In this document: one piece after another, positions 16,345-23,031 of the stretch
How the letters are laid out: the number at the start of each line of letters is the position of its first letter
Numbering within the stretch: the stretch's first letter is position 1
NCBI RefSeq assembly: GCF_009834565.1
Contig: NZ_CP019428.1
Location: forward strand, 5,456,001 to 5,520,000
DNA from: Pseudomonas sp. R76
GTDB taxonomy: Bacteria > Pseudomonadota > Gammaproteobacteria > Pseudomonadales > Pseudomonadaceae
Reading direction: 5' to 3'
DNA length: 64,000 nt
The notes under the pieces: generated by a model
Told to the model about the DNA's origin: nothing
The model's database searches: none
Seen by the model: the letters and a program-made list of their open reading frames with translations, nothing else
Program-made: the position numbers and the translations under genes

Positions 16345-16574
16345 ATAAGGTCTCTATCAGAAGGGTCGCGTACAGGGAATCATGCCCCACAGAGTTTGAC
16401 CATAGTCGGGTGTATCGGCCACCGCGCCGGGTTATACTGCCGCGCCTTTTTAGCGTCGCGTCAACAATACTTGCTCTTCTTCGCGACGCGCCTTGGAAAG
16501 GTGGATTCAGCCGACCGATGCAACACTGAAGCCACCTTTATTGAATGTTCCCGTCTTATAGAGGAGCGCGACTC

Positions 16575-18098
16575 ATGACCGTGATCAAGCAAGACGACCT
16601 GATTCAGAGCGTTGCCGACGCCCTGCAATTCATTTCCTACTACCACCCCGTTGACTTCATCCAGGCGATGCACGAAGCGTACCTGCGCGAAGAATCGCCA
16701 GCAGCGCGTGACTCCATTGCGCAGATCCTGATCAACTCGCGCATGTGCGCCACCGGCCATCGCCCGATCTGCCAGGACACCGGTATCGTTACCGTGTTTG
16801 TGCGCGTGGGCATGGACGTACGTTGGGACGGCGCCACCATGGGCCTGGACGACATGATCAACGAAGGCGTGCGTCGCGCCTACAACCTGCCGGAAAACGT
16901 CCTGCGCGCATCGATCCTCGCCGACCCGGCAGGCGCGCGCAAAAACACCAAGGACAACACCCCGGCCGTGATCCACTACTCCATCGTCCCGGGTAACACC
17001 GTGGAAGTGGACGTGGCGGCAAAGGGCGGCGGTTCCGAGAACAAGTCGAAAATGGCCATGCTCAACCCGTCCGACTCGATCGTCGACTGGGTGCTCAAGA
17101 CCGTTCCGACCATGGGCGCCGGCTGGTGCCCACCGGGCATGCTCGGCATCGGCATCGGCGGCACCGCCGAGAAGGCCGCAGTCATGGCCAAGGAAGTGTT
17201 GATGGAATCCATCGACATCCACGAGCTGAAAAAGCGCGGCCCGCAGAACCGTATCGAAGAGATGCGCCTGGAGCTGTTCGAGAAGGTCAACCAACTGGGC
17301 ATCGGCGCTCAGGGCCTGGGTGGCCTGACCACCGTGCTCGACGTGAAAATCATGGACTACCCGACCCACGCAGCCTCGCTGCCGGTGTGCATGATCCCCA
17401 ACTGCGCGGCCACCCGTCACGCGCACTTCGTGCTCGACGGTTCCGGCCCGGCGTCGCTGGAAGCGCCACCGCTGGACGCCTACCCGGAAATCGTCTGGGA
17501 AGCCGGCCCATCGGCCCGTCGCGTCAGCCTCGACACCCTCACCCCGGAAGAAGTGCAGAGCTGGAAGCCGGGCGAAACCGTGTTGCTCAACGGCAAGATG
17601 CTCACCGGCCGCGACGCTGCGCACAAGCGCATGGTCGAGATGCTGAACAAGGGTGAAACCCTGCCGGTGGACCTCAAGGGTCGCTTCATCTACTACGTCG
17701 GCCCGGTTGATCCGGTGCGCGAAGAAGTGGTTGGCCCAGCCGGCCCGACTACCGCGACGCGGATGGACAAGTTCACCCGTCAGATCCTCGAGCAAACCGG
17801 CCTGCTGGGCATGATCGGCAAATCCGAGCGCGGCCCGACCGCGATCGAAGCGATCAAGGACCACAAGGCTGTGTACCTGATGGCCGTCGGCGGCGCAGCT
17901 TACCTGGTGGCGCAAGCCATCAAGAAGTCGCGCGTTGTCGCCTTCGCCGAGCTGGGTATGGAAGCGATCTACGAGTTCGACGTGAAAGACATGCCGGTCA
18001 CCGTTGCTGTCGACAGCAAGGGCGAATCCGTGCACATCACCGGTCCTGCCATCTGGCAGAAAAAGATCAGTGAAAGCCTGGCGGTAGAAGTGCAGTAA
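16575..18098 (+). CDS. fumA: Class I (iron-sulfur) fumarate hydratase
   Basis: Interconverts fumarate and malate in the TCA cycle using an oxygen-sensitive 4Fe-4S cluster. 507 residues from the ATG with GAGGAG 9 bases upstream. Cluster ligands predicted by spacing to E. coli FumA are C66 (ICQDTG), C185 (WCPPGM) and C272 or C277 (CMIPNC). The large alpha domain and C-terminal beta domain are fused in one chain, as in FumA/FumB. Single gene with its own terminator. Confidence 0.94.
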   Translation: MTVIKQDDLIQSVADALQFISYYHPVDFIQAMHEAYLREESPAARDSIAQILINSRMCATGHRPICQDTGIVTVFVRVGMDVRWDGATMGLDDMINEGVRRAYNLPENVLRASILADPAGARKNTKDNTPAVIHYSIVPGNTVEVDVAAKGGGSENKSKMAMLNPSDSIVDWVLKTVPTMGAGWCPPGMLGIGIGGTAEKAAVMAKEVLMESIDIHELKKRGPQNRIEEMRLELFEKVNQLGIGAQGLGGLTTVLDVKIMDYPTHAASLPVCMIPNCAATRHAHFVLDGSGPASLEAPPLDAYPEIVWEAGPSARRVSLDTLTPEEVQSWKPGETVLLNGKMLTGRDAAHKRMVEMLNKGETLPVDLKGRFIYYVGPVDPVREEVVGPAGPTTATRMDKFTRQILEQTGLLGMIGKSERGPTAIEAIKDHKAVYLMAVGGAAYLVAQAIKKSRVVAFAELGMEAIYEFDVKDMPVTVAVDSKGESVHITGPAIWQKKISESLAVEVQ

Positions 18099-18154: not shown

Positions 18155-18170
18155 TGGCGAACTCGCTCAT

Positions 18171-18255
18171 GTGGGAGCTGGCTTGCCTGCGATGCAGACA
18201 CCTCAGTAAGTCAGGCACACCGGATTGGTGCCATCGCAGGCGAGCCAGCTCCCAC
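18171..18255. repeat. REP pair (outward-facing, CAGGCAAG subtype)
   Basis: GTGGGAGCTGGCTTGCCTGC at the left and its near-complement (one base differs) at the right, about 40 bases apart, in the fumA-mifS intergenic region. It is read through by an open frame in phase with mifS, which is why the mifS start must lie downstream. Confidence 0.88.
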
Positions 18256-18330: not shown

Positions 18331-20097
18331 ATGATCGCGATCCCACGCCCGTTGCGCCTGACCTTCTACTCCCTGCTGATCATCGCTGGTGCGGTGCTGG
18401 CCGCGGCCTTGGCCACTCGCCATGCCGAACGCCAAGCCCTGGTCGATGACGCCGCTCGCGCCAATCAACAGCTCACGCTCTATGGCAACTCCCTGCACAC
18501 GCTGATCGAACGCTACCGCGCCCTGCCCGCCGTGTTGGCGCTGGACTCGGAGATGATCAGCGCGTTGAAAAACCCGGTGGATGCCACGACTCAGAACGTG
18601 CTTAACCGCAAGTTGGAGCGCATCAACGGCGCCGCGCAGTCTTCCACGCTCGAACTGATGGACCGCACCGGCCTGGCCGTGGCCGCCAGCAACTGGAACC
18701 TGCCGAGCAGTTATGTGGGACACAACTATGCGTTTCGCCCTTATTTCAGCCAGACCTTGAGCCAGGGCACCGGGCGTTTTTATGCCGTCGGCGTAACCAC
18801 CGGGATTCCAGGTTACTTCCTCTCCAGCGCAGTGGTCGACGAGCACGACCAGTTCCTCGGCGCCATGGTCGTGAAGCTGGAATTCCCTGAACTCGAACGC
18901 GAATGGGCCCAGGGCAATGACCTGCTGCTGGTCAGCGACGCGCGCGGCATTGTGTTTATTGCCAACCAGCCGGGTTGGCGTTACCGCAACCTGCGACCGC
19001 TGTCGGCCAGTGACCTCGCCGAGCTCAAGGCCACCCGCCAGTACGACAAAAAACAACTGCAGCCGTTGGAAACCAGCACCCTGCAGCGCTTCGGCGAAAA
19101 CAGCCACCTGATGCGCGTCAATGGTCCCGACGGCAATGCCAATTACATCTGGGAATCGCTGCCGCTGAAGGCCGAAGGCTGGACGCTGCACCTGCTGCGC
19201 AAACCCCAATTTGCCTTTGAAGACCAACGCAACGCCGGCCTCGCCGCCGCCGGGTCGTGGTTGGCCCTGGTGTTTCTGGTGCTGTTCCTGACCCAGCGCT
19301 GGCGCCTGGCCCGCTTGCGCCAACGCAGCCGTGAAGAGCTGGAGCAGTTGGTCGAGGAACGCACCCAGGCGCTGCGCACGGCTCAGGATGGTCTGGTGCA
19401 ATCGGCCAAGTTGGCTGCATTGGGCCAGATGTCCGCCGCCCTCGCCCACGAAATCAATCAACCGCTGACCGCGCAACGCATGCAGTTGGCGACCTTGCGC
19501 CTGCTGCTGGACCATGGCCGCGTGGACGATGCCTATCAGGCGCTGACGCCGCTGGACGATATGCTCACACGCATGGCCGCACTCACCGGCCACCTCAAGA
19601 CCTTCGCGCGCAAAAGCCCGAGCGGCCTGCGTGAAAAGCTGGATTTGGCCACGGTGGTCGACCAATCCCTGCACTTGCTCGATGCACGCCTGCGCGACGA
19701 AGCCATCGGCGTGGTGCTGGACCTGACGCGCCCCGCCTGGGTACGCGGCGACGCGATCCGCCTGGAACAGGTGCTGATCAACCTGCTGCGCAACGCCCTC
19801 GACGCAATGGCCGACAAGCCGCGCAAACGCCTGGAAATCCGCCTGCACGCCGACCAACAACTGTGGCGGCTGACCGTCAGCGACAGCGGCGGCGGGATTG
19901 CCGAAGAACACTTGAACAGTGTGTTCGACCCGTTCTTTACCACCAAGCCCGTGGGCGACGGCCTCGGCCTTGGGCTGGCGGTGTCCTACGCTATCGTGCA
20001 TGAATTGGGCGGGCGCCTGCTCGCCGGCAACCGTGGCGACGGCGCCATATTCACCCTGACCTTGCCCATTGCGCTGGAGACGCCCGACCTATGTTGA
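18331..20097 (+). CDS. mifS: DctB/MifS-type C4-dicarboxylate or 2-oxoglutarate sensor histidine kinase
   Basis: 588 residues. N-terminal helix ([20 protein letters not shown]), a periplasmic dCACHE sensor domain (about 35-285) with the DctB-like [30 protein letters not shown] stretch, a second helix ([16 protein letters not shown]), a coiled coil, the H-box [14 protein letters not shown] (His about 373), and HATPase motifs [16 protein letters not shown] and DGLGLGLA. The start was chosen at [10 protein letters not shown] because the frame upstream is a translated REP repeat. It overlaps the next gene by 7 bases. The adjacent 2-oxoglutarate permease makes the P. aeruginosa MifS system the best comparison; succinate-type DctB is the alternative. 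Confidence 0.88.
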
Positions 20098-21416
20098 ATG
20101 CAGTGATTGTGGTCGATGACGAAGCCAGTATTCGCACGGCCGTCGAACAATGGTTGAGCCTGTCGGGGTTTGCCGTGCAGTTGTTCAGCCGCGCCGAGGA
20201 ATGTTTGGCGCAACTGCCCAAGGATTTCCCCGGCGTGATCTTGAGCGACGTGCGCATGCCCGGCCTCAGTGGCCTGGAGTTGTTGGCCGAAGTACGGCGC
20301 CGCGATGCCGACCTGCCGGTGATATTGCTCACCGGCCACGGCGATGTGCCGATGGCGGTGGAAGCCATGCGCGACGGGGCCTACGATTTTCTGGAAAAAC
20401 CCTTCAGCCCCGACGCCCTGCTCAATAGCCTGCGGCGCGCCCTGGACAAACGCGGGCTGATCCTGGAGAACCGGCGCCTGCATCAACAGGCCGACCATCG
20501 AGCGCAGCTGGAGTCGAGCCTGCTGGGCGTGTCCCGCGGCTTGCAGAATTTGCGCCGCCAGGTGCTGGACCTGGCGAGCTTGCCGGTCAATGTGTTGATC
20601 CGTGGCGAGACGGGCAGCGGCAAGGAATTGGTCGCGCGCTGCCTGCATGATTTCGGCCCGCGCGCGAAAAAGCCGTTTGTAGCGCTCAACTGCGCCGCCA
20701 TCCCCGAGCAGCTGTTTGAAGCCGAATTGTTCGGCCACGAAAGTGGCGCGTTCACCGGCGCCCAGGGCAAGCGCATCGGCAAGTTGGAATACGCCCACGG
20801 CGGCACGTTGTTCCTGGATGAAATCGAAAGCATGCCGCTGGCCCAGCAGGTGAAGCTGCTGCGCGTGTTGCAGGAGCAGAAGCTGGAGCGACTGGGTTCC
20901 AACCAAAGTATTCACGTGGATTTACGCATTATCGCCGCGACCAAGCCGGACTTGCTGGAAGAGGCACGCGCCGGGCGTTTTCGCGAAGACCTGGCCTACC
21001 GCCTGAACGTCGCGCAATTGCGCCTGCCACCGCTGCGCGAGCGCCGCGAAGATATTCCGCTGCTGTTTGACCACTTTGCCCACAGCGCTGCCGAGCGCCT
21101 GGGCCGCAGCGCCGAACCCTTGAGCGGTGCGCAACTGGGACGGTTGCTCAGCCATGATTGGCCAGGGAATGTGCGCGAACTGGCCAACGTCGCCGAACGC
21201 CAAGTGCTGGGCCTGGGTGAGCCGGAACCGGAAGGTATCGAGGCCGGGCAATCGTTGGCGGCGCAGCAGGAGGCATTTGAAGCGCATTGCCTGAAAGCGG
21301 CGCTGGTTCGGCACAAGGGTGATATCAAGGCGGTGCTGGCGGAGTTGCAACTGCCGCGTCGCACCTTTAATGAAAAGATGCAGCGGCATGGGTTGGTGCG
21401 GGATACCTTCCTGTAG
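20091..21416 (+). CDS. mifR: Sigma-54-dependent response regulator, MifR/DctD type
   Basis: 441 residues. Receiver domain with the acidic pocket VVDDE, phospho-Asp in ILSDVRMPG (about 52) and the Lys in FLEKPF. AAA+ sigma-54 interaction domain with Walker A GETGSGKE, the loop GAFTGA (intact, so it can contact sigma-54) and Walker B GGTLFLDEIE. A C-terminal Fis-type helix-turn-helix (KAVLAELQLPRRTFNEKMQRHGL) follows. Translationally coupled to the sensor kinase. The likely target is the permease gene just downstream, which carries a sigma-54 promoter and paired upstream repeats. Confidence 0.93.
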   Translation: MLNAVIVVDDEASIRTAVEQWLSLSGFAVQLFSRAEECLAQLPKDFPGVILSDVRMPGLSGLELLAEVRRRDADLPVILLTGHGDVPMAVEAMRDGAYDFLEKPFSPDALLNSLRRALDKRGLILENRRLHQQADHRAQLESSLLGVSRGLQNLRRQVLDLASLPVNVLIRGETGSGKELVARCLHDFGPRAKKPFVALNCAAIPEQLFEAELFGHESGAFTGAQGKRIGKLEYAHGGTLFLDEIESMPLAQQVKLLRVLQEQKLERLGSNQSIHVDLRIIAATKPDLLEEARAGRFREDLAYRLNVAQLRLPPLRERREDIPLLFDHFAHSAAERLGRSAEPLSGAQLGRLLSHDWPGNVRELANVAERQVLGLGEPEPEGIEAGQSLAAQQEAFEAHCLKAALVRHKGDIKAVLAELQLPRRTFNEKMQRHGLVRDTFL

Positions 21417-21446: not shown

Positions 21447-21529
21447 TTCGCGAGCAAGCCCGCTCCCACATTCGACCGCATCTCTCCAGTTGAAATGGGA
21501 TCGAATGTGGGAGCGGGCTTGCTCGCGAA
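21447..21529. repeat. REP pair (inward-facing, GCGAGCAAG subtype)
   Basis: TTCGCGAGCAAGCCCGCTCC... and the inverted copy GTGGGAGCGGGCTTGCTCGC..., separated by about 37 bases that contain a further inverted ATTCGA/TCGAAT. It sits between mifR and the kgtP control region. Confidence 0.88.
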
Positions 21530-21545
21530 AGGGGCAGTCGCCATA

Positions 21546-21593
21546 AGCGGATTTCCGCTCACCCCCCTCAAACCATCAGCAACTTTCCGCTCA
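21546..21593 (+). promoter_or_regulatory. Twin upstream repeats, candidate MifR-type binding sites
   Basis: AGCGGATTTCCGCTCA (21546-21561) and AGCAACTTTCCGCTCA (21578-21593) share 13 of 16 positions and are spaced exactly 32 bases, three helical turns. The first contains the perfect inverted repeat AGCGGA-TT-TCCGCT. They lie about 45-90 bases upstream of the sigma-54 promoter, the expected location for an NtrC-family enhancer. Assignment to MifR is inferred from adjacency. Confidence 0.6.
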
Positions 21594-21634
21594 AAAACAT
21601 TCTGAAACCCTTCTAAACCGGGCCCTCATCTACT

Positions 21635-21650
21635 TGGCACAGCTTCTGCT
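21635..21650 (+). promoter_or_regulatory. Sigma-54 (RpoN) promoter of kgtP
   Basis: TGGCAC-N5-CTGCT, with the invariant GG and GC dinucleotides at the correct spacing; one mismatch to TGGCAC-N5-TTGCT. It is 61 bases upstream of the permease start and next to a gene for a sigma-54 activator. Confidence 0.8.
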
Positions 21651-21684
21651 ATAGCCGAACCAGGCAGCGTTCGCGCCGCTCCAC

Positions 21685-21692
21685 AAAAACAA
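21685..21692 (+). promoter_or_regulatory. Crc/Hfq catabolite-repression motif in the kgtP leader
   Basis: AAAAACAA fits the AANAANAA motif recognised by Hfq with Crc. It lies 20 bases before the ATG and immediately before the ribosome-binding site, the usual position for translational repression of transport genes in Pseudomonas. The motif is short, so chance occurrence is possible. Confidence 0.5.
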
Positions 21693-21711
21693 TTAGATGA
21701 AGGATCCTTCA

Positions 21712-23031
21712 ATGGATAACTCCAACACCTTGCCTTTGGGGTCGGCGGCTGTGCCGGCCAAAGAACGCACAACGTCCAGCCGGATCAAATCGATCTTCAG
21801 CGGCTCCGTCGGCAACATGGTCGAGTGGTATGACTGGTACGTCTACGCCGCCTTCTCGCTGTACTTCGCCAAAGCCTTCTTCCCCGCCGGCTCCTCCACC
21901 GCCCAGTTGATGAACACCGCCGCGATCTTCGCCGTGGGCTTCATCATGCGCCCGATCGGTGGCTGGCTGATGGGCCTCTACGCCGACTACAAGGGCCGCA
22001 AGGCCGCGCTGATGGCCTCAGTCTTGCTGATGTGCTTCGGCTCGCTGCTGATCGCGCTGACCCCGGGTTACGACACCATCGGCATCGGCGCGCCGATCCT
22101 GCTGGTGTTCGCGCGTTTGCTGCAAGGCCTGTCGGTGGGTGGCGAGTACGGCACCTCGGCGACCTACCTGAGTGAGATGGCGACCAAGGAACGTCGCGGT
22201 TTCTTCTCCAGCTTCCAATATGTGACCCTGATCTCCGGCCAGCTCATCGCCCTGGCGGTGTTGATCGTGCTGCAGCAAGTGCTGACCACCGAGCAGTTGT
22301 ACGCCTGGGGCTGGCGCATCCCGTTCGCCATCGGCGCCTTGTGCGCAGTGGTCGCGCTGTTCCTGCGTCGCGGCATGGAAGAAACCGAGTCGTTCACCAA
22401 AAAGGAAAAAGCCAAGGAAAGCGCCATGCGCACCTTGATGCGCCACCCCAAGGAAGTGTTGACCGTGGTCGGCCTGACCATGGGCGGCACCCTGGCGTTC
22501 TACACCTACACCACCTACATGCAGAAATACCTGGTGAACACCGTCGGCATGAGCATCTCCGACTCCACCACCATCTCGGCCGCCACGCTGTTTCTGTTCA
22601 TGTGCCTGCAACCCTTGGTCGGCGGGCTGTCCGATAAAGTCGGCCGGCGCCCAATCCTGATCGCCTTCGGCATCCTTGGCACGCTGTTCACCGTGCCGAT
22701 CCTCACCACCCTGCACACCATCCAAAGCTGGTGGGGCGCGTTCTTCCTGATCATGGCGGCGCTGATCATCGTCAGCGGCTACACCTCGATCAACGCAGTA
22801 GTGAAAGCTGAACTGTTCCCGACCGAAATTCGCGCCCTCGGCGTGGGCCTGCCGTATGCGCTGACCGTGTCGATCTTCGGCGGCACTGCTGAATACATCG
22901 CGCTGTGGTTCAAGAGCATCGGTATGGAAACCGGTTACTACTGGTATGTGACGGCGTGCATTGCCGTGTCGCTGGTGGTCTACGTGACCATGAAGGACAC
23001 CCGCAAGCACTCTCGTATCACCACAGACTAA
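21712..23031 (+). CDS. kgtP: 2-oxoglutarate (alpha-ketoglutarate) MFS permease
   Basis: 439-residue, 12-helix major facilitator, metabolite:H+ symporter family. It follows E. coli KgtP closely: VGNMVEWYDWYVYAAFSLYFAKAFFP (helix 1), the loop RPIGGWLMGLYADYKGRK, GLSVGGEYGTSATYLSEMA, FYTYTTYMQKYLVNTVGM, LSDKVGRRP, and KAELFPTEIRALGVGLPYA near the C-terminus. The start was taken at the second ATG because AAGGA lies 7 bases before it; an ATG five codons upstream overlaps that ribosome-binding site. Probably induced by the MifSR-type pair via sigma-54. Confidence 0.9.
   Translation: MDNSNTLPLGSAAVPAKERTTSSRIKSIFSGSVGNMVEWYDWYVYAAFSLYFAKAFFPAGSSTAQLMNTAAIFAVGFIMRPIGGWLMGLYADYKGRKAALMASVLLMCFGSLLIALTPGYDTIGIGAPILLVFARLLQGLSVGGEYGTSATYLSEMATKERRGFFSSFQYVTLISGQLIALAVLIVLQQVLTTEQLYAWGWRIPFAIGALCAVVALFLRRGMEETESFTKKEKAKESAMRTLMRHPKEVLTVVGLTMGGTLAFYTYTTYMQKYLVNTVGMSISDSTTISAATLFLFMCLQPLVGGLSDKVGRRPILIAFGILGTLFTVPILTTLHTIQSWWGAFFLIMAALIIVSGYTSINAVVKAELFPTEIRALGVGLPYALTVSIFGGTAEYIALWFKSIGMETGYYWYVTACIAVSLVVYVTMKDTRKHSRITTD

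Follow-up and report, generated by a model that had tools for sequence, protein, structure and literature searches.

A predicted tandem MifR operator of the DctD type at the sigma-54 promoter of kgtP in Pseudomonas sp. R76

The window, i.e., the whole 64-kb stretch of DNA analysed here out of a 6.83-Mb genome, contains four plus-strand genes in a row, which resemble a fumarase gene, mifS, mifR, and kgtP. The features of this locus are listed below, dyads being scored over the ten specified positions of GCGGA-NN-TCCGC.

16545-18098, plus strand: fumarase-like gene
18331-20097, plus strand: mifS-like sensor kinase gene (HATPase_c above the cut-off; dCache_1 and HisKA below the Pfam cut-off)
20091-21416, plus strand: mifR-like gene for a sigma-54 activator (Pfam Response_reg, Sigma54_activat, and HTH_8, corresponding to a receiver, an AAA+ module with GAFTGA, and a Fis-type HTH)
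21447-21529: REP-like inverted repeat with 38-nt arms, 92% complementary
21543-21562: site 1, predicted MifR operator, ATAAGCGGA-TT-TCCGCTCAC, a near-perfect dyad (core at 21547-21558, 10/10)
21575-21594: site 2, predicted weaker MifR operator, ATCAGCAAC-TT-TCCGCTCAA (core at 21579-21590, 7/10)
21635-21650, plus strand: sigma-54 promoter element TGGCACAGCTTCTGCT (TGGCAC-N5-CTGC)
21663-21680, plus strand: probable hairpin in the leader, ahead of the A-rich motif (pair count over 93 of 121 leaders)
21685-21692, plus strand: AAAAACAA, likely Crc/Hfq site (predicted), before AAGGA
21700-21704, plus strand: AAGGA, likely ribosome-binding site judged from sequence, 7 nt before the ATG at 21712
21712-23031, plus strand: kgtP-like permease gene (NCBIfam NF007710 above its cut-off)

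The genes mifS, mifR, and kgtP are thus consecutive, as in the gene set of a MifSR-type 2-oxoglutarate permease circuit. The ATG at 18331 presumably serves as the start of mifS, homologues of which were present in all 25 genomes asked, and 139 of the 149 genomes in the genus set gave a match to mifR at E ≤ 1e-170. An intact GAFTGA loop had been ascribed to the adjoining activator in the initial annotation, and the MifR-like protein indeed features ESGAFTGA together with GETGSGKE and D53. For KgtP, P. antarctica is the closest named relative among the matches listed (99%). The kgtP reading frame as listed begins at 21697, five codons upstream of the ATG at 21712; in the intervening stretch (21697-21711), relatives carry stops or have no ATG. 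Since stops inside the KgtP match were flagged in six orthologues, with the stop located between both candidate starts in L029 and L031, comparison among relatives suggests that kgtP probably starts at 21712 rather than at 21697. The inverted repeat at 21447-21529, presumably a REP element, lies outside the operator; a pair of inverted sequences of similar look was noticed by eye at about 18168-18255, before mifS. Scans for sigma-70 promoters and for terminators found none.

Genetically, a circuit of this kind is known from P. aeruginosa. According to excerpts of PMC4482717, 2-oxoglutarate use in this organism needs mifS, mifR, and rpoN, and the transporter rescues the mutants; expression of the transporter needs MifS and MifR, and growth on 2-oxoglutarate needs RpoN unless PA5530 is provided in trans. 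The same excerpts describe a Crc signature at PA5530 and a promoter motif, GATCGGCGGATt/gTCC, which also occurs at mifS and whose role was still sought there. Both 2-oxoglutarate and glutarate elicit a response from MifS (as summarised in PMC7654740), and use of C5-dicarboxylates needs MifR whereas use of C4-dicarboxylates needs DctD (PMC7962211, in the part available). The MifSR-RpoN-PA5530 system and kgtP of R76 are alike in gene set, sigma-54 element, and Crc signature, and the PA5530 motif overlaps the kgtP dyad (PMC4482717). In contrast to the PA5530 circuit as described in these excerpts, kgtP adjoins mifSR here, the motif takes the form of a tandem dyad, and none is found at mifS. The circuit is therefore not new, since the dependence on MifSR and RpoN, the Crc signature, and part of the motif have been printed for P. 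aeruginosa (PMC4482717). The operator type is already known from DctD, and PA5511/MifR is already named in an HT-SELEX atlas among the factors predicted to bind intergenic regions only (PMC8041468, as excerpted). A literature search found, in the texts it covered, no MifR operator specified beyond the motif of PMC4482717. This analysis adds the predicted assignment of the operator to the DctD type and an outer-base difference between paralogues that would otherwise share an operator. A DAP-seq study on P. aeruginosa response regulators is also said to exist.

Twin 16-bp repeats, identical at 13 of 16 positions and 32 bases apart, had been claimed upstream of kgtP; they are present as AGCGGATTTCCGCTCA at 21546-21561 and AGCAACTTTCCGCTCA at 21578-21593 (32 bp from start to start), and a repeat search lengthens both copies to 21 nt with 81% identity and the same spacing of 32. 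The binding sequence proposed on this basis, AGCNNNTTTCCGCTCA, stood up as a repeat, its only two exact matches in the 6.83-Mb genome lying at the kgtP promoter, but not as a site, since it comprises a right half-site plus the edge of the other half. When up to two mismatches are tolerated, 180 places are found in the whole genome versus 148 for the reversed control; because this count barely exceeds the control, it is the exact pair alone that is distinctive. As copy 1 forms a nearly perfect palindrome of 20 bp, the repeated unit is, as far as sequence can tell, the dyad ATRAGCGGA-NN-TCCGCTYAY rather than a direct repeat, its left half being degenerate in copy 2. The DctD-type dyad GCGGA-NN-TCCGC is matched at 10/10 positions by site 1, the sole 10/10 dyad within the 64-kb window, and at 7/10 by site 2, which follows 32 bp after site 1 and has a weak left half.

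A search for KgtP in 149 genomes of the genus gave a match at E ≤ 1e-150 in 122; G119, with a 59% paralogue only, was left out, and the orthologue set comprises 121 members including that of the own genome, the upstream stretch of each member being read. Nine promoters of a 57-58% identical paralogue and 2420 dinucleotide shuffles served as controls, and dyads were scored over the 260 bp that precede the sigma-54 element. Among the 121 kgtP promoters, the top dyad score was 10/10 in 97, 9 in 16, 8 in two, and 7 in six. The search upstream of kgtP homologues had been set beforehand as a test of the repeats, which it bore out: a strong dyad (at least 9/10) occurs in 113 of 121 orthologues versus 48 of 2420 shuffles and none of the nine paralogue promoters (maximum 8), and a tandem pair, defined by a spacing of 32 or 33 bp and a summed score of at least 15, in 112 of 121 (77 at 32, 35 at 33) versus 16 of 2420 shuffles and none of the nine paralogue controls. 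These orthologue counts are not independent, because the genomes are related. Nine promoters fall below the pair threshold (L079, L088, L111, L112, L115, L120, L121, L124, and L125); several of them have one good half per site, and in L124 and L125 the spacing is 31. Among 194 genomes of the order, three with a close KgtP belong to a second genus of the family, probably that of P. aeruginosa, and in each of them a dyad scoring 10/10 lies upstream of a sigma-54 element, at a distance of exactly 100 bp (3/3); the motif GATCGGCGGATt/gTCC excerpted from PMC4482717 matches there at 13 or 14 out of 15 letters.

The consensus of the 112 best kgtP sites, which were picked on the core alone after the nine promoters below the pair threshold had been dropped, reads A84 T96 R A75 GCGGA WW TCCGC T88 Y A95 Y, the numbers being percentages. 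It bears on the reading of the unit as a head-to-tail direct repeat of AGCNNNTTTCCGCTCA, recognised by monomers or by a protein whose site has a direction. While the right half alone is common to both copies in the window, as such a repeat would have it, the 112 best sites are palindromic to the ninth base on each side with the outer bases unused in their choice, and the weak half is the left one in some genomes and the right one in others. The direct repeat is scarcely credible and was rejected, both halves being kept as a palindrome. It is also very improbable that the repeats arose by chance or as a REP-like by-product, with kgtP being expressed mainly by read-through from mifSR. That explanation could draw on the REP-like repeat with its 38-nt arms, which ends 13 bp before site 1, and on the finding of no intrinsic terminator between mifR and kgtP (shuffles give 0.6), yet it sits poorly with tandem pairs in 112 of 121 orthologues as opposed to 16 of 2420 shuffles, with the persistence of these pairs despite changed flanks and promoter distance, and with genomes in which mifR and kgtP lie several kb apart (G112, G037) and the dyad is found with kgtP (L068, L073).

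The sigma-54 element of kgtP has the GG of the -24 and the GC of the -12 region at the correct spacing, and transcription is predicted to start near 21660. The single mismatch originally assigned to it holds with respect to TGGCAC-N5-TTGCW but becomes two with respect to the fuller TGGCACG-N4-TTGCW given in excerpts of PMC4482717. A match of at least 8/10 is found in all 121 orthologues; 8/10 is also reached in two of the nine paralogue controls, both times in REP-like sequence. Of the 112 promoters with a pair, 91 have the start of the proximal site 55-57 bp ahead of the sigma-54 element and 20 have it 113-172 bp ahead, the latter all keeping the 32-bp pair spacing; the remaining value (83) is an artefact of L103, where the script chose an upstream sigma-54-like match. 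The predicted upstream activator sites are thus conserved at variable distance (112/121), and an enhancer should tolerate such a joint shift of the dyad pair. The -12 sequence is mostly CTGC at kgtP and mostly TTGC at dctA, and kgtP promoters are therefore further from the consensus.

In the own genome, the core dyad GCGGANNTCCGC is not enriched (19 places versus 20 for the reversed pattern). The strict palindrome AGCGGANNTCCGCT was counted in 30 chosen genomes, and its places were set against the kgtP coordinates: 26 places were obtained, 19 at kgtP and seven elsewhere, the reversed pattern gave 17, and nine genomes had none. Since 19 of the 26 places are at kgtP and the remainder stays below the reversed control, the strict operator is seen to recur at kgtP alone in these 30 genomes. 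A wider regulon was considered and rejected, both with the strict palindrome (seven places outside kgtP versus 17 for the reversed control in the 30 genomes) and with two right halves at tandem spacing (eight places in the genome, one of them at kgtP, versus 27 reversed). An operator at mifS was likewise rejected: in the last 400 bp upstream of the gene in 25 genomes, the best dyad scores 8/10, a level that shuffles also reach, so that the motif shared with mifS in the excerpts of PMC4482717 was not seen there.

In the leader, an A-rich motif had been placed ahead of the ribosome-binding site; AAAAACAA at 21685-21692 indeed precedes AAGGA at 21700-21704. The motif AANAANAA is present in 115 of 116 parsed leaders (five of 121 were unparsed), L069 being the exception, versus 2.6% of shuffled leaders. 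It lies close to the ribosome-binding site, as in Crc/Hfq target mRNAs, and control of kgtP by Crc/Hfq is likely on the strength of this conservation. A short conserved hairpin ahead of the A-rich motif is also likely. Each of the 94 unique 5' parts forms five or more pairs on folding (mean z -1.2), and C-G to T-A exchanges occur among leaders. In a pair count over 93 of 121 leaders (28 skipped), 319 of 371 cells are paired versus a maximum of 292 in 500 permutations, with at least one string mis-registered and partners slid by two columns pairing in up to 69% of cells versus 86%. With 40 of the 95 unique leaders aligned by MAFFT, RNAalifold returned no pair and no consensus structure. The sequence GAAGGATCCTTC at 21699-21710 is self-complementary over the ribosome-binding site and folds as a small hairpin, which could exert extra translational control.

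The own genome contains a second promoter with dyads of this kind. At L150, two perfect GCGGA-NN-TCCGC dyads (C1:5192170 and 5192211, 41 bp apart) lie upstream of the sigma-54 element TGGCACGGCGTTTGC and the gene for DctA. dctA was found in 133 of 149 genomes and 70 of these promoters were read, 69 of which contain dyads in tandem, 41 or 42 bp apart, the pair scoring 18 or more. Outer bases were tabulated for 112 of 121 kgtP promoters and 69 of 70 dctA promoters (L208 dropped). All 138 dctA sites have G..C as the outermost pair, as opposed to 7 of 224 kgtP sites; the other kgtP sites have A..T (130), G..T (60), A..C (24), or C..T (3), and both sites in the window have A..T rather than the G..C of Pseudomonas dctA. 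Since the core of the dyad is present and the dctA-like outer pair is not, the sites in the window represent the same operator type and not a dctA-like DctD site. By its sequence, the kgtP operator is of the DctD type, with the 12-bp core GCGGA-NN-TCCGC also occurring at dctA; Pseudomonas dctA and kgtP share this core and the tandem sites and differ in the outer pair (G..C versus mainly A..T) and in spacing (about 41 versus 32/33). The Rhizobium DctD site has the same core, is likewise arranged in tandem upstream of a sigma-54 promoter, and carries T..A as outermost pair as opposed to mainly A..T at kgtP; its two sites differ 50- to 100-fold in affinity according to the title of a reference (all in excerpts of PMC11077940).

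The proteins are related as well. The names DctD for L156 and AauR for L155 are assigned by similarity, helices, and neighbours. Recognition helices, located with patterns requiring P[RK][RK]T or PRKT, read PRRT[F/L]NEK[M/L]QRHG in MifR (from 110 of 121 stretches, the 40 commonest variants listed accounting for 89 of the 110), PRKTLHDKLRKHG in DctD (30 loci; 146 of 149 genomes matched), and AKTTLFDKVKKYG in AauR (one genome). MifR and the DctD-like protein are 53% identical and have similar helices (PRRT and PRKT). Because the 12-bp core is identical at dctA, the kgtP dyads might be read in the cell by DctD, alone or together with MifR. Such a role of the paralogue would fit the common core and tandem layout, the likeness of the two proteins, and the seven kgtP sites with G..C outside, and is nevertheless unlikely in view of the outermost pair of the 138 dctA sites, the wider spacing at dctA, and the division of labour in P. 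aeruginosa, where MifR is needed for C5 use and DctD for C4 use (PMC7962211, as excerpted).

The preferred reading, to which a probability of roughly 0.85 is given, is that MifR binds the tandem dyads and activates the sigma-54 promoter of kgtP, with likely Crc/Hfq control in the leader; a MifR-type sigma-54 circuit, probably with Crc/Hfq control, has good support as a prediction from sequence. In such a circuit, MifS would likely sense 2-oxoglutarate, leading to activation of the kgtP promoter by MifR. Dimers of phosphorylated MifR would sit on both dyads, on the same face of the helix, filling the strong site first and the weak site cooperatively, as cited for Rhizobium DctD. The MifR oligomer would then touch the sigma-54 polymerase via GAFTGA. 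While a preferred carbon source is present, Hfq/Crc bound to AAAAACAA beside the ribosome-binding site may block translation. Together, these predictions provide a base-level operator model for a genetically known circuit over much of the genus.

The outermost pair, A..T-like at kgtP and G..C at dctA, would help to separate MifR from DctD, and insulation of the paralogues by this outer-base difference is a candidate prediction from the site tables. More generally, gene regulation poses the question of what prevents cross-talk between close paralogues whose DNA sites are nearly identical; in the present case, a single outer base pair in each half-site is predicted to be the key, a prediction that is directly testable. 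If it holds, replacing the outermost A..T by G..C and altering the spacing as well would place kgtP under DctD instead of MifR control, and its inducer would be a C4-dicarboxylate rather than 2-oxoglutarate. One kind of dyad may link three sister activators, since AauR sites, given as TTCGG-N4-CCGAA, share the CGG-N4-CCG centre with the kgtP dyad and have TT..AA rather than AG..CT outside (PMC7962211, as excerpted). In a tentative generalization, held at slightly less than even odds, the operators of MifR, DctD, and AauR would all be built on one tandem CGG-N4-CCG dyad and be told apart by the outer bases (AG, GG, and TT) and by spacing (32/33, 41, and 31/32, respectively). The pattern TTCGG-N4-CCGAA is not enriched in the genome (eight places versus nine for the control). 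Three of the eight places have a sigma-54-like element downstream, and in two of these three the dyads are in tandem, at spacings of 31 and 32 bp; the genes there are, by eye, periplasmic binding protein-like and asparaginase-like. At L381 (C1:4155471), an AauR-type dyad is followed by a second one (9/10) 31 bp on, by TGGCATACATTCTGC downstream, and by a regulator-like gene; judged by these elements, L381 is possibly a further AauR-type target.
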